Assembly (NCBI RefSeq): GCF_000337735.1
Contig: NZ_AOHX01000026.1
Location: forward strand, 287,645 to 351,644
Direction of reading: 5' to 3'
Length of the DNA stretch: 64,000 nucleotides
Origin: Natronorubrum sulfidifaciens JCM 14089
GTDB lineage: Archaea > Halobacteriota > Halobacteria > Halobacteriales > Natrialbaceae
Both the position numbers and the translations under genes were made by a program. The notes beneath the pieces were generated by a model that saw nothing but the letters and a program-made list of their open reading frames with translations, was not told where the DNA came from and ran no database searches. Within the stretch, counting starts at the first letter, position 1. The number at the start of each line of letters is the position of its first letter. Positions 4,790 to 50,034 of the stretch are shown piece after piece.

Positions 4790-5010
4790 TGCGTTCAGGC
4801 GTCCACGCGTCATCATGGTCTATGACTCTGTAGTGGGAGCGTAAAAGGATATAGGACTTCCCAAAGCGCACCAGCCACGTTACCGTTCCACAGTCGTTCG
4901 GCGGGTCACGGACGCCGAGAGCTGCGCCGGAGCCGTGGTGGCGGACGGACCGCTGTCCGTCGGTTCCAACGAAGTCACGACCCGTCAGCAAATCGGGACA
5001 ACGGCCCGTC

Positions 5011-5394
5011 TCAGAGGTGGTCTTTGCCCGGGTTCGACGAGCCCCAGTCACCGCGCCCGCCTTCAGTCCGGTCGATACCCATGATCGACTCGGCCTGATC
5101 GGGGCCGCCGAGACTCTCGCGGGCATCGGGCACGCGAACCGTGATGTCGTCGATTTCGGGCCACGTGAGCAGTTCAGCCTCGATGTTGCTCGTCGTGATG
5201 TTGCTCACCGAACATCCCTTGCAGCCGCCACCGAGTTCGATAATCACTTCACCGGTTTCCGGATCAGCCGCACGGACGGCGCTCGTCCCGCCGTGCATCT
5301 GGATGATCGGCATCTCGCGGCTGAGCCAGTTTTCGACCCGCTCGTGGAGTGATGGCTCGGCGTCGGCGTGGGATCTGGCGTCGGAATCCGTCAT
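5011..5394 (-). CDS. NifU C-terminal domain iron-sulfur scaffold protein
   Basis: This 127-residue protein has a NifU C-terminal (NFU) domain at about residues 15-95. Its thioredoxin-like CxxC is in GGGCKGCSVS (Cys58, Cys61), the motif that bridges a 4Fe-4S cluster between two protomers. It probably carries or delivers Fe-S clusters to target enzymes. The acidic, disordered C-terminal tail (GGPDQ to KDHL) is variable in haloarchaea. It has no close operon partner; an intergenic gap of about 235 nt precedes the ACT gene on the same strand. Confidence 0.9.
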   Translation of the reverse strand: MTDSDARSHADAEPSLHERVENWLSREMPIIQMHGGTSAVRAADPETGEVIIELGGGCKGCSVSNITTSNIEAELLTWPEIDDITVRVPDARESLGGPDQAESIMGIDRTEGGRGDWGSSNPGKDHL

Positions 5395-8682: not shown

Positions 8683-8758
8683 CTCGTAGGGGTTGCTGTC
8701 GTCAGTGACCGCCGATCGCCAGCCACGGATCGGCGGGACATCGGGACACCAGTCCCTA
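8683..8758 (-). repeat. Stop-abutting structured 3'-UTR repeat, copy 1
   Basis: This copy begins on the base after the TGA of the minus-strand UspA gene (8759-9214) and runs downstream of it. It shares gacgacagca and the inner stem ccgccgat/atcggcgg (8 bp, 12-nt loop) with the copies at 10081, 44842 and 45172. It is the only minus-strand copy and follows a minus-strand gene. Confidence 0.65.
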
Positions 8759-9214
8759 TCACGCGTCGTTTCTGACGAACGTCACTGGACACGGTGCCGA
8801 CAGGAGGACTTCCTGTGCCGTCGAGCCGAAGACCGCTTTCCCGGTCGGCGAGCGCCGTCGGCCGCCGACGACGACCCGGTCCGCGTCGACACTGGTCGCG
8901 AGGTCGATTATCGTCGGCCCGTGTTCACCGATCGCGCCGCTGATCTCGTAGTCGATGTCGTGGTCGTCGAACACCGCAGCGAGATCGTGGATCGTCGAAT
9001 GTCGTCGTGCGACATCGTTGGGGTCGATCTCGTCGTCTCCGGCGGCGAAGTCGAGTCGGGAGACCACCTCGTCGTACTCATCGCTCGTAAAGACGTGGGC
9101 AAGCGAAACAGTCGCGTCGGCCGGTTTGGCGACCTCGACGACAGCCTCGGCCAGTTCGTCGAGTCGATCAGCGTCACCGGGACCAACAGCGAGGAGCACA
9201 GTATCAAGCGGCAT
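8759..9214 (-). CDS. Universal stress protein (UspA family)
   Basis: This 151-residue UspA-domain protein is colinear with its downstream neighbour at 8093-8557 and clearly a tandem duplicate ([20 protein letters not shown] shared). It also has Arg for the second Gly of the nucleotide loop ([15 protein letters not shown]), so both members of the pair share an altered binding loop. It starts at ATG 9214 ([12 protein letters not shown]). The structured repeat follows immediately after its TGA. Confidence 0.88.
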
Positions 9215-9339: not shown

Positions 9340-10080
9340 ATGGACGGACCCGACCTCGAGGGACAGACGGTGCTCGTGACGGGCAGTGCGAAAGGCGTCG
9401 GCCGCGAACTGCTGTTAGCGACGGCCGACTGCGGCGCGAAGACGGCCGTACACTACCACTCGAGTGCGGATGCAGCCGATGAGGTGGCCGCGAAAGCAAC
9501 AGCACGCGGCGCGAGCGACTCGATGACGGTTCAGGGTGACGTCACCGATCCCGAACGCGTCGACGACCTCTTTGCGGCCGTCGAGTCGGAACTCGGGAGC
9601 GTCGACGTGCTCGTCAACAACGTCGGTGATTTCGCGCCCGCCCACTGGGCCGACCTCGAGTTCGAGACGTGGAACCGAGTGCTCGAGACCAATTTCAACG
9701 GCACGTATCTCTGTTCGAAACGCGCGCTGCCGGCGATGCGCGAGGAATCGTACGGCCGGATCGTCAACATCGGCTACGCCTCGAGCGAGCAGGGGCTGGT
9801 CAGCCCGAAGAACTTCCCCTATTTCGTCGCGAAAGCAGGCGTGTTGATGTTCACGCGGATGCTCGCGGCCGACACGCAAGACGACGGGATCACCGTCAAC
9901 GCCATCTCGCCGTACGTCGTCGAAAACTCCGACGAGTTCCCCGCTGACCTCCCTCGAGGGCGGCCTGCGAGCTTCGAGGACCTGACCGCCCCGCTGTATT
10001 TCTTCCTCGATCCGGATAGTGGGTACATCAGTGGCGAAAACGTGGAGGTCGACGGCGGCTGGCTCCCCGAGACGGTCTGA
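9340..10080 (+). CDS. Short-chain dehydrogenase/reductase (SDR)
   Basis: This 246-residue classical SDR has the cofactor motif TGSAKGVG at residues 14-21, NNVG, a YFVAK catalytic Tyr/Lys pair, and the C-terminal SGENVEVDGGW typical of 3-oxoacyl-ACP-reductase-like members. It is expected to be an NAD(P)-dependent oxidoreductase in the cytoplasm. The substrate is not predictable. The stop codon is followed at once by a copy of the structured repeat. The last codons (acggtctga) resemble the repeat's own 5' arm (acggtctgc). Confidence 0.88.
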   Translation: MDGPDLEGQTVLVTGSAKGVGRELLLATADCGAKTAVHYHSSADAADEVAAKATARGASDSMTVQGDVTDPERVDDLFAAVESELGSVDVLVNNVGDFAPAHWADLEFETWNRVLETNFNGTYLCSKRALPAMREESYGRIVNIGYASSEQGLVSPKNFPYFVAKAGVLMFTRMLAADTQDDGITVNAISPYVVENSDEFPADLPRGRPASFEDLTAPLYFFLDPDSGYISGENVEVDGGWLPETV

Positions 10081-10164
10081 TACGGTCTGCTGTAACGAGT
10101 TACCGCCGATCACCAGCGGCGGGGTCGGTAATCGGCGGTCAGTGACGACAGCAGCCCGTATGAG
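10081..10164 (+). repeat. Stop-abutting structured 3'-UTR repeat, copy 2
   Basis: This 84-nt element starts on the base after the SDR stop. Its inner stem accgccgat (10102-10110)/atcggcggt (10131-10139) is 9 bp and perfect. The outer arms ggtctgctgt/acagcagccc pair with one mismatch. It aligns without gaps to the copy at 44842 with 72 of 84 identities by my count. Confidence 0.75.
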
Positions 10165-25052: not shown

Positions 25053-25886
25053 ATGTTCGAACGCATTCTCGTTCCGACCGACGGCAGCGGCCCGGCGAAC
25101 GCCGCACTCGAGTACGCCGGCGCGATCGCTGCCGCGGAGAATCTGACCGTCCATATCCTGCACGTGATCGACCCGGATTCGGGACCGGACGAGACGGACG
25201 AGCCGATCGCGGACGGGCGCGAGTGGGCAGGCGAAACCGGTAGCCCAGTCATCGATGAGGTCCATACCGGCGAGCCGCGGGAGGCGATCCTCGAGTACGC
25301 CGCGACCCACGACGTCGACGCGATCGTCATGGGTACACGGGGCCGACGCGGCGTCGGTCGGCTCCTGCTCGGCAGCGTGACCGAAGCGGTCGTCCGGGAC
25401 GCTCCCGTCCCCGTCCTCGTCGTTCGGGGAGCCGCGGAGGTCAGGCGAGAGTATCCGCTCGAGACGATCGTCGTCCCGATCGACGGCAGCAGTCACGCCG
25501 ATGCCGCCCTCGATGAGGCGCTTTCGATTGCGAAAGAGCTGGATGCGACCATTCATCTGCTCTCGGTGGTCGACGTCGCCCCCGTTGGCATAGACGAGCG
25601 CGACGATATCCGACTCGAGCAGTTCGAACAGTACGCAGAGTCGGTCCTCGATGAAGGGGTAAAACGGGCCGAACAGCTGGGTGTCGATGCCGAGCGGACG
25701 GTCCAACACGGCTCGGCGCACCGACGGATTCGGACCTATACGGACGACGTCGACGCCGACCTCGTCGTGATGGGGACACATGGCCGACGCGGACTCGACC
25801 GACTCTTGCTCGGCAGCGTCACGGAACGTGTGTTGCGGACGGCGACGACGCCGGTGTTGACGGTCCATACCGACGAGACGGAGTGA
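25053..25886 (+). CDS. Tandem two-domain universal stress protein
   Basis: This 277-residue protein has two UspA domains in a row: residues 1-130 (MFERILVPTDGSGPANAALEYA to VLVVRG) and 138-277 (TIVVPIDGSSHADAALDEAL to VLTVHTDETE). Both keep the full nucleotide loops, MGTRGRRGVGRLLLGS and MGTHGRRGLDRLLLGS. It is predicted to fold as a pseudo-dimer and bind ATP. It lies 63 nt downstream of the broken aminotransferase gene. Confidence 0.93.
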   Translation: MFERILVPTDGSGPANAALEYAGAIAAAENLTVHILHVIDPDSGPDETDEPIADGREWAGETGSPVIDEVHTGEPREAILEYAATHDVDAIVMGTRGRRGVGRLLLGSVTEAVVRDAPVPVLVVRGAAEVRREYPLETIVVPIDGSSHADAALDEALSIAKELDATIHLLSVVDVAPVGIDERDDIRLEQFEQYAESVLDEGVKRAEQLGVDAERTVQHGSAHRRIRTYTDDVDADLVVMGTHGRRGLDRLLLGSVTERVLRTATTPVLTVHTDETE

Positions 25887-25902
25887 GACGGGCTGCTGTC
25901 GG
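25887..25902 (+). repeat. Possible 5' remnant of the stop-abutting repeat
   Basis: Directly after the TGA of the double UspA gene the sequence reads gacgggctgctgtcgg. It matches the 5' arm of the repeat copies (gacggtctgctg at 45172). The 3' arm with gacgacagcag is missing, so this is a truncated or chance copy. Confidence 0.3.
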
Positions 25903-43359: not shown

Positions 43360-44841
43360 ATGAGCGACGAGAGTCAAGAACTCGGCATCACCGAGTCGAA
43401 ATCGCACAAGCCCGGCGACTGGTACGCCGAAGTCGTCCAGAAGGCAGGTCTCGCGGATTACGCCCCGATGGGCGGCTTCATCGTCACGAAACCGCGCGGC
43501 TACGCGCTGTGGGAGGGCATTCAGGACGCCCTCGACAGCGAGTTCAAAGCGACCGGCGTCGACAACGTCTACTTCCCGATGTTCATCCCCGAGAGCTTCT
43601 TGGAGCGCGAGAAGGACATCGTCGAAGGATTCGACCCCGAGGTCGCGTGGGTGACCCACGGCGGCCACGACGAACTCGAGGAGCGACTCGCCGTCCGACC
43701 GACCAGCGAGTCGATCATCGCACCGTTCATGGCCGACTGGACCCGCAGCCACCGCGACCTGCCCCTGCGACTCAACCAGTGGTGTTCGGTCGTTCGCTGG
43801 GAGGCGACGGAGACGAAGCCGTTCTTCCGGACGAAGGAGTTCATGTGGCAGGAAGGCCACACCGCCCACGCATCCGACGAAAGCGCGTGGGAGGAGGTCT
43901 GGACCCGACTCGGCCAGTACGAGAACCTCTACGAGGACGTGCTGGCGATTCCGGTCCTGCGCGGTAAGAAGCCCGAACACGACAAGTTCCCCGGAGCCGA
44001 CACCACGACGACGGTCGAGGCACTGATGCCCGATGGCAAGTCCGTTCAGGGAGCGACGAGCCACAACCTCGGCCAGAGCTTCGCCGAGGCCTTTGACATT
44101 ACGTTCGCCGACGAAGACGAGGACGAGCGAACGGCCTACACCACCTCGTGGGGGCTGTCCTGGCGAGCGATCGGCGCGCTCATCATGACCCACTCAGACG
44201 ATCAGGGGCTCGTGCTCCCGCCGACGATCGCGCCCACGCAGGTCGTTATCGTCCCCATCTGGCAGGAGGACACCAAAGACGACGTCCTCGAGTACTCCGC
44301 GGACATCGCCGATGACCTCGAGGCGGCCGGCTTCAGCGTCGAACTCGACGATCGGGACGAGCGCAACCCCGGTTTCAAGTTCAACGAACACGAGTTAAAC
44401 GGCGTACCGTTGCGTCTCGAGATCGGCCCCTACGAGGTCGAAGACGAGGAGGTCACGCTGGTTCACCGGCCGGACAACGAGGAGTCCGTCGAGGACCGCG
44501 ACGAGATCGTCGACGCCGTCGACGAGCATCTGGACGAGGTCTTCGACAAACTGTACGACGCGGCCGAGACAAACCTCGAGGAGAACGTCCGCGAAGCGTA
44601 CAGTCCGGAGGAGATCCTCGGCACGATCGGCAAACACGGCGGCTACGTGAAGACGTCGTGGTGTGGCGACGAGGCCTGCGAGGAAGCCATCAAAGAGAAG
44701 ATCGCCGCCGAAATCGTCATGCAGCCGCTCGAGGACGAAGGCGGGACGACGGCCGGCGAGGTTCCCGAACCCGACCACGACGAGTGTGGCGTCTGTGGCG
44801 ACCCCGCAGACGAGATCGCATACTTCGCGAAGTCCTACTGA
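43360..44841 (+). CDS. proS: Prolyl-tRNA synthetase, archaeal/eukaryotic type
   Basis: This 493-residue class II synthetase charges tRNA-Pro. Visible are the N-terminal KPGDWYAEVVQKAGLADYAPMGGF, motif 2 RWEATETKPFFRTKEFMWQEGHTAH, motif 3 near the SWGLSWRAIGAL stretch and the anticodon domain (TQVVIVPI). It has the C-terminal zinc-binding extension CGDEACEE...CGVCGDP, and ends in the conserved Tyr. Its TGA is followed at once by a structured-repeat copy. Confidence 0.97.
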   Translation: MSDESQELGITESKSHKPGDWYAEVVQKAGLADYAPMGGFIVTKPRGYALWEGIQDALDSEFKATGVDNVYFPMFIPESFLEREKDIVEGFDPEVAWVTHGGHDELEERLAVRPTSESIIAPFMADWTRSHRDLPLRLNQWCSVVRWEATETKPFFRTKEFMWQEGHTAHASDESAWEEVWTRLGQYENLYEDVLAIPVLRGKKPEHDKFPGADTTTTVEALMPDGKSVQGATSHNLGQSFAEAFDITFADEDEDERTAYTTSWGLSWRAIGALIMTHSDDQGLVLPPTIAPTQVVIVPIWQEDTKDDVLEYSADIADDLEAAGFSVELDDRDERNPGFKFNEHELNGVPLRLEIGPYEVEDEEVTLVHRPDNEESVEDRDEIVDAVDEHLDEVFDKLYDAAETNLEENVREAYSPEEILGTIGKHGGYVKTSWCGDEACEEAIKEKIAAEIVMQPLEDEGGTTAGEVPEPDHDECGVCGDPADEIAYFAKSY

Positions 44842-44925
44842 GATGGACTGCTGTACCGATTTACCGCCGACCACCAGCGGCGGGGTCGGTGATCGGCAGT
44901 AAGCGACGACAGCAGTCCGGATGAG
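44842..44925 (+). repeat. Stop-abutting structured 3'-UTR repeat, copy 3
   Basis: It starts on the base after the proS stop. Outer arms ggactgctgt (44845-44854) and acagcagtcc (44909-44918) pair perfectly over 10 bp; the inner arms pair with one mismatch. It is gap-free against the 10081 copy over 84 nt. Confidence 0.78.
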
Positions 44926-45424
44926 ACCGTCGAAACGGTATCGGCGGCCCGATCAACCGGCGATTTTCGAGGAGAGATCGTACCCTGACACTGGATTGTG
45001 ACGTCGACGGAGTTCGTGGCAGGGAGTAACAGGCAGACCTAATTCTTTAACCACATACTGCTTATGGCTGGCAACATAATGAATAACCGTGGTGTTCACT
45101 CTGGTGGGTGAGCACTACGTGCCTCTGACACTTCTGCCCACACCGGGCAGTCATTTCCGTTCGATCAGTGAGACGGTCTGCTGCCCCAATGTCCCGCCGA
45201 GTACCGACCTGTCCTGGTACTCGGTGGTCAGTGACGACAGCAGTCCGTATGCTGCCGTCGGCTCGAGCAGCGAGCGCTGAGGCCGACTGTCGAGTGGCGT
45301 CTGACGGACGGTATATTATTTACTATCATTAAGGACCATATGCCTTATATTCGATTATATGTGTCTATAATACACTTAGTCATTATGGATCAACCTCTTA
45401 TAGGTGTTTTCGCTACTTGTGCGT
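44926..45424 (+). other. Intergenic region proS-gltB, no clear gene
   Basis: This 500-nt gap holds a second structured-repeat copy (45172) and AT-rich sequence before gltB (45310-45420, with ttatatgtgtctataatacac) that must contain the gltB promoter. One micro-frame, ATG 45064 to TGA 45111 (MAGNIMNNRGVHSGG), continues in frame for 19 more codons to a second TGA at 45169-45171, exactly where the repeat begins. I do not call it a gene, but note it as a finding. Confidence 0.5.
45172..45254 (+). repeat. Stop-abutting structured 3'-UTR repeat, copy 4
   Basis: It starts after TGA 45169-45171 and ends in cagtccgtatgctg. The inner stem 45194-45205/45216-45227 is 12 bp with one G-T wobble and a 10-nt loop. 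The five loop-proximal pairs (gtacc/ggtac) differ from other copies yet still pair. Confidence 0.75.
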
Positions 45425-49969
<4,545 letters not shown>

Positions 49970-50022
49970 GATAGGCTGCGGTTCCGATCACGGGCGGCGG
50001 GATCGATGACGACAGCAGTTCG
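49970..50022 (+). repeat. Stop-abutting structured 3'-UTR repeat, copy 5 (shortened)
   Basis: It begins on the base after the gltB stop. The 5' arm ggctgcggt and the 3' block gatgacgacagcag are recognisable, but the inner stem is reduced to cgatc/gatcg and the element is about 30 nt shorter than the full copies. Confidence 0.55.
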
Positions 50023-50034
50023 TCTGCCCTCGAC

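Follow-up and report, generated by a model that had tools for sequence, protein, structure and literature searches.

A mobile, MITE-like foldback repeat of Halobacteriales that duplicates a 3-bp target and is often inserted at stop codons

The short intergenic repeats of the window (the whole 64-kb stretch of DNA that was analyzed) very probably belong to a non-autonomous, MITE-like foldback family moved in trans by a putative enzyme. The unit is ~80 bp long (~86 bp counting both target trinucleotides) and duplicates 3 bp of its target, as shown by the matched TSA trinucleotides (TGA or TCA) that border its copies and by an empty site. Relatives of the element are common across Halobacteriales. 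The first-pass annotation of the window had offered three readings of the repeats: transcript 3'-end elements, sRNA precursors and non-autonomous mobile units. The last agrees with the 3-bp duplication, the empty site and the near-identical dispersed copies, and nothing in the analysis supports an sRNA precursor. The 3'-end reading survives in part, as the repeats do lie after stop codons, but that position is a consequence of the insertion target, and copies are found in either orientation. The family offers a natural experiment, as many genes have received a strong hairpin precisely on their stop codon and can be compared with orthologues that lack it. The experiment comes from archaea, in which termination and the processing of 3' ends are little understood.

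Six copies were recognizable in the window (Table 1), comprising all five that had been annotated plus one at 4941-5013(-). The annotated gap-free alignment of the copies at 10081 and 44842 (72 identities over 84 nt) was reproduced exactly. Our coordinates differ slightly because the real element ends include the flanking TSA; the earlier boundaries had captured the copies and overlooked both the coincidence with stop codons and the matched flanking trinucleotides. Covariance-model E-values on the 64-kb window were 3e-20, 1e-16, 2e-12, 1e-9 and 2e-6, which are somewhat flattered because copies 10078 and 44839 are among the 33 model sequences. The window copies are not due to chance. The internally deleted copy is weak by itself (E 0.3), and it has the correct 5' end and the stop-codon position.

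Table 1 Copies of the element and an isolated element end in the window
Feature	Position	Strand	Observations
Full copy, both duplicated TGA	44839..44924	+	Covariance-model E 1e-16
Second copy of the cluster	45169..45252	+	Inner stem differs (GAGTACC/GGTACTC); right TSA mutated to TGC
Best window copy	10078..10163	+	Covariance-model E 3e-20; duplicate TGA 10161-10163
Shortened copy	8684..8761	-	Gene 8759-9214(-) stops at TGA 8759-8761 (minus); the far end has become CGA by mutation
Sixth copy, degenerate, absent from the first-pass annotation	4941..5013	-	Covariance-model E 2e-6
Internally deleted copy, 61 nt, degenerate	49967..50027	+	TGA 49967-49969 serves as stop codon for the long ORF that ends at 49969
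Isolated element end TGAGACGGGCTGCTGT	25884..25899	+	Pattern match; overlaps the stop codon of ORF 25053-25886

Five of the six window copies have the stop-codon position. A prolyl-tRNA synthetase-like gene (proS, 43360-44841) has its stop codon at TGA 44839-44841, an SDR-like gene (9340-10080) at TGA 10078-10080 and ORF 5011-5394(-) at TGA 5011-5013 (minus). The copy at 45169-45252 is off any stop codon and is missing from the relative aligned. For the shortened copy at 8684-8761(-), some relatives show partial matches to either side. In genus relatives the proS stop is retained without the element, and the downstream flank is too diverged to give a base-exact empty site. The isolated end at 25884-25899, the other half of which is not recognizable, is a probable remnant.

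The genome of origin contains many more copies. BLAST with one copy as query gave 44 matches, independently of any covariance model, and 22 of these were used to build a first model. This model gave 147 matches in the same genome including reverse-strand duplicates, which reduced to 102 distinct copies from the searched loci and stretches; all own-genome statistics below rest on these 102. They span 61-113 nt, and the element is multicopy with no transposase gene inside. The covariance-model search that had been proposed as a check thus returned ~100 further copies at home, and it also found copies across Halobacteriales: the first model matched at least 33 of 61 genomes, own included, and a second model at least 47 of 146 genomes from a sample of the whole order, the matches being spread over several families. 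One copy is plasmid-borne (in Haloarcula). Phage records contained no copies, and the viral contigs tested gave 16 chance end matches and no element. An Rfam search of the window returned no family matching the element, its sole match being a tRNA. No earlier description of the family was found in the literature searched; the element, an intergenic repeat dominant in a whole archaeal order, appears undescribed there.

Target duplication was assessed from the trinucleotides at the two ends. Among the own-genome copies, 67 carry one of the two trinucleotides (TGA or TCA) at each end, and in 64 of them the ends are the same (35 TGA, 29 TCA, 3 mixed; p ~3e-16, binomial by hand). In other genomes, where copies were drawn from the best-scoring matches and located by their inner ends only, disregarding the TSA, the trinucleotides agreed in 42 of 42 and 31 of 31 cases (73/73 in total). 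Five pairs of copies at least 95% identical differ in their TSA, each copy being matched at its two ends. As near-identical copies carry either TGA or TCA, the trinucleotide belongs to the target and not to the element. The empty site corresponds to the copy at 10078: N. bangense JCM 10635 (G007; name inferred) has a single TGA at the end of the same SDR gene, with ~93% identity in both flanks. Movement has been recent in a genome of another family (G133), since the arms of twelve copies retrieved there show no differences at the positions compared, with the same bodies at separate sites. The target logo is palindromic but weak (CGWC-TSA-GWCG) and is also seen at non-stop sites.

Two loci are more complex. 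At the stop of the SDR gene, a relative (L212/L217, G002:C1 ~517100-517240) has a partial duplication of the gene 3' end, and the left flank of the window copy matches there twice. In L308 100-265 (G005:C14) two elements of different subfamilies abut with one TGA in common; one element seems to have inserted at a TGA duplicated by the other.

The TGA lies exactly on a predicted stop in 48 of the 102 own-genome copies, stops being called in the flanks of element loci by a simple gene caller for which the window served as training sequence. Gene neighbors were convergent for 31 copies, tandem for 53 and divergent for 11. Half of the copies with an intact duplication are at stops (32/64, 50%), versus expectations of 6% if all accessible TSA sites are equal and 18% if sites are weighted by the preference learned at non-stop sites (p = 7e-9). 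The other genomes gave 13 stop-codon copies among 20 real elements (21 candidates) and 18 among 31; G005 was left out of these rates, as its loci were trimmed close to the elements. RefSeq annotation places a CDS stop on the TGA of the element in Haloarcula sinaiiensis and for one N. bangense copy, and a further three annotated copies of N. bangense lie close to genes without being on a stop. In Natronolimnohabitans innermongolicus, the same stop codon of proS is occupied by a copy that belongs to a different subfamily. Overall, roughly one copy in two lies away from stops. The preference arises in part because the CGWC-TSA-GWCG target resembles haloarchaeal gene ends (GAC-TGA), and the excess beyond target preference may reflect selection against insertions elsewhere. 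As the duplication preserves the stop codon, insertion there does no coding damage.

Complete copies are mostly 84-86 nt. The structure was derived from 33 copies, all 86 nt long and taken from several genera, that were aligned without gaps; its layout is TSA, outer stem, 9x9 internal loop, 13-bp inner stem, ~10-nt loop and the mirror half. The outer stem, which is also the terminal inverted repeat (TIR), is KACGG-N-YTNCTGT (columns 4-16 with 71-83) and has 93.4% of its cells paired, with columns 9/78 mismatched in 22 of 29 copies. The inner stem is formed by columns 26-38/49-61. The two strands of the conserved 9x9 internal loop are unlike one another, which gives the element polarity. Overall, 93.0% of cells are paired in the named structure versus 80.4% upon shuffling. 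Double-sided changes occur at 13 pairs, and the covariation score of 0.341 (shuffled, 0.142) was reached in none of 500 shuffles. Slid structures scored far lower, a control that is somewhat favorable because the structure was proposed from the same sequences. Single-copy folding gave z-scores of ~-5 for the complete copies of the window, -9 for one copy from G133 and -2.4 for the shortened 8684 copy. Many subfamilies exist. One copy (L021 1454-1566, G000:C43:185962-186074) has grown to 113 nt and contains about five tandem GGTCAGT units in its right internal loop.

Relative to the ends of the element, the central loop is found either way round. In G133, copies with matching arms and otherwise the same sequence have the loop in one orientation in 3 cases and in the other in 9; both orientations are also present in G021, G005 and G026, and one own-genome subfamily splits 15 versus 5. 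Template switching within a palindrome can yield loop inversion together with compensated stems (PMC8794818), and hairpin-dependent mobilization could be an alternative source of both. The covariation is therefore not proof of RNA function, since either process could give the same pattern.

This bears on the possibility that the repeats are functional 3'-UTR RNAs (terminators, processing signals or stability hairpins) maintained by selection, their similarity being due to shared function. The position directly after stops, the very stable fold (z ~-5 to -9 in complete copies) and the strong covariation fit such a reading, as does a report, cited in PMC12306157, that E. coli REPs no more than 15 nt from a stop stall ribosomes. 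However, RNA selection was set aside as the sole source of the covariation because template switching accounts for stem compensation and loop flips without it. The matched TSA on both sides, the empty site, the presence of identical copies in different genes, the occurrence of both orientations at stops and the half of copies that are off stops also argue against a functional RNA, which we consider very improbable. An RNA-only (terminator or sRNA) origin is not supported, whereas a secondary RNA effect following insertion may occur; by analogy, the stalling at E. coli REPs suggests that these hairpins could have an effect.

Among the known repeat systems, bacterial REP/REPIN sequences with TnpA-REP resemble the element in being dispersed imperfect intergenic hairpins, often just past stops (PMC2817692, PMC3116915, PMC8266576). 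REP units are ~20-40 bp (PMC3733652), whereas the present element is ~80 bp with a 3-bp target duplication. Single-stranded mobility of the hairpins through a Y1 (HUH) transposase such as TnpA-REP would fit the dispersed imperfect palindromes after genes, the conserved mismatch at columns 9/78 with the internal loop, and the stem compensation and loop flips. However, a target duplication is not expected of Y1 elements, whereas the one seen here is almost invariant and varies with the target base, making this route improbable. Haloarchaeal PATEs are likewise transposase-free and palindromic, but they lack TIRs and target duplications, both present here, and are related to IS605-type transposons (PMC3119063). 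The element is not a REP, a PATE or a known Rfam RNA. The short mobile repeats SMR-A/B of Haloquadratum are similar in size (80-110 bp) and in having prominent TIRs; their TIRs are unrelated to known transposons and their mobilizer is not known (PMC3119063). For the present element, no related transposon was found in the own-genome loci, the PF01609 loci or G133. That the element is an SMR is nevertheless decidedly improbable, as SMRs are reported to lack target duplication and to reside within other mobile elements, mostly PATE/IS605 elements in the case of SMR-A (PMC3119063), whereas here 3 bp are duplicated and the TSA targets lie at gene ends and in intergenic regions.

The element behaves like prokaryotic MITEs, such as those of Haloquadratum (PMC3119063): these are short, non-coding and multicopy, with TIRs and a constant target duplication, and each of these features was found here. 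The element differs in its conserved, compensated inner stem (plain MITEs need no conserved inner stems), its internal loop, its two loop orientations, its strong stop-codon location and the lack of a parent transposon in the loci searched. It is classed only as MITE-like because shared transposon ends were not found in a non-exhaustive search. No autonomous transposon with the ends of the element was found in the own-genome loci, the PF01609 loci or G133. In the own loci, inverted end pairs at 130-3200 bp were just pairs of MITE ends or weak matches. All 30 PF01609 (IS4/IS5-type) loci examined in nine genomes have other TIRs, and PF00665 and PF13586 transposases were absent from six element-bearing genomes; no PF01609/PF13586 transposase with matching ends, as an IS5-group (IS1031-type) origin would require, was thus seen. 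In G133 (2 contigs, 99% complete, dozens of copies, many of them identical) no inverted pair at IS distance was found using the TIR pattern with at most one mismatch, a search that ends sharing fewer bases would escape. The first-pass annotation would have been refuted by matches to a known IS or MITE end; the ends of the element agree with none of the ISs examined. A 916-bp autonomous candidate in G005 was really two separate elements flanking an unrelated stretch.

The element could still be an ordinary MITE, an internally deleted derivative of a known IS whose transposase was missed, and we rate this as having nearly an even chance. It is a sub-case of the MITE-like reading, one completion of the best explanation, so the confidences given here overlap and are not exclusive. 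Short TIRs and a duplication of constant length are classic for DDE elements, and a 3-bp target with a palindromic center occurs in some IS5-group elements. Set against this are the searches above. As the transposase families they covered were PF01609, PF00665 and PF13586, a parent IS of an ordinary kind that shares only short ends may yet exist, for example among the IS630, IS6, IS66, IS1595 or ISH types. A more speculative and rather unlikely completion is a parentless system in which an unlinked or chromosomal recombinase would recognize the folded hairpin and insert it with a 3-bp stagger, delivering it preferentially to stop codons across Halobacteriales. Hairpin recognition would then account for the compensation in the stems, the fixed mismatch, the conservation of the internal loop and the loop flips.

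For the MITE-like family as a whole, we propose that a putative transposase acting in trans would make a 3-nt staggered cut at TSA. Insertions at stops would be enriched since the target is like Asp-stop gene ends and insertion there would be harmless to coding. A folded intermediate, through hairpin-dependent mobilization or template switching during replication, would produce the compensated stems and flipped loops. The inserted element would place a stable hairpin 1-2 nt past the stop codon, where it may affect termination or mRNA stability. Through the missing mobilizer and the inversions of the loop, the mechanism is open to direct test.

The window also contains an intergenic block (~45040-45150), located after proS and before the next long ORF, with a promoter-like box and a near-invariant core GTGGTGTTCACTCTGGTGGGTGAGCACTACGTGCCTCTGACA, followed within the genus by a CTGCCC..GGGCAG hairpin. 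The block has no Rfam match and resembles a small RNA or leader gene that is so far undescribed. It is kept downstream of proS in 9 of 9 genus relatives and in 15 named Natrialbaceae loci.
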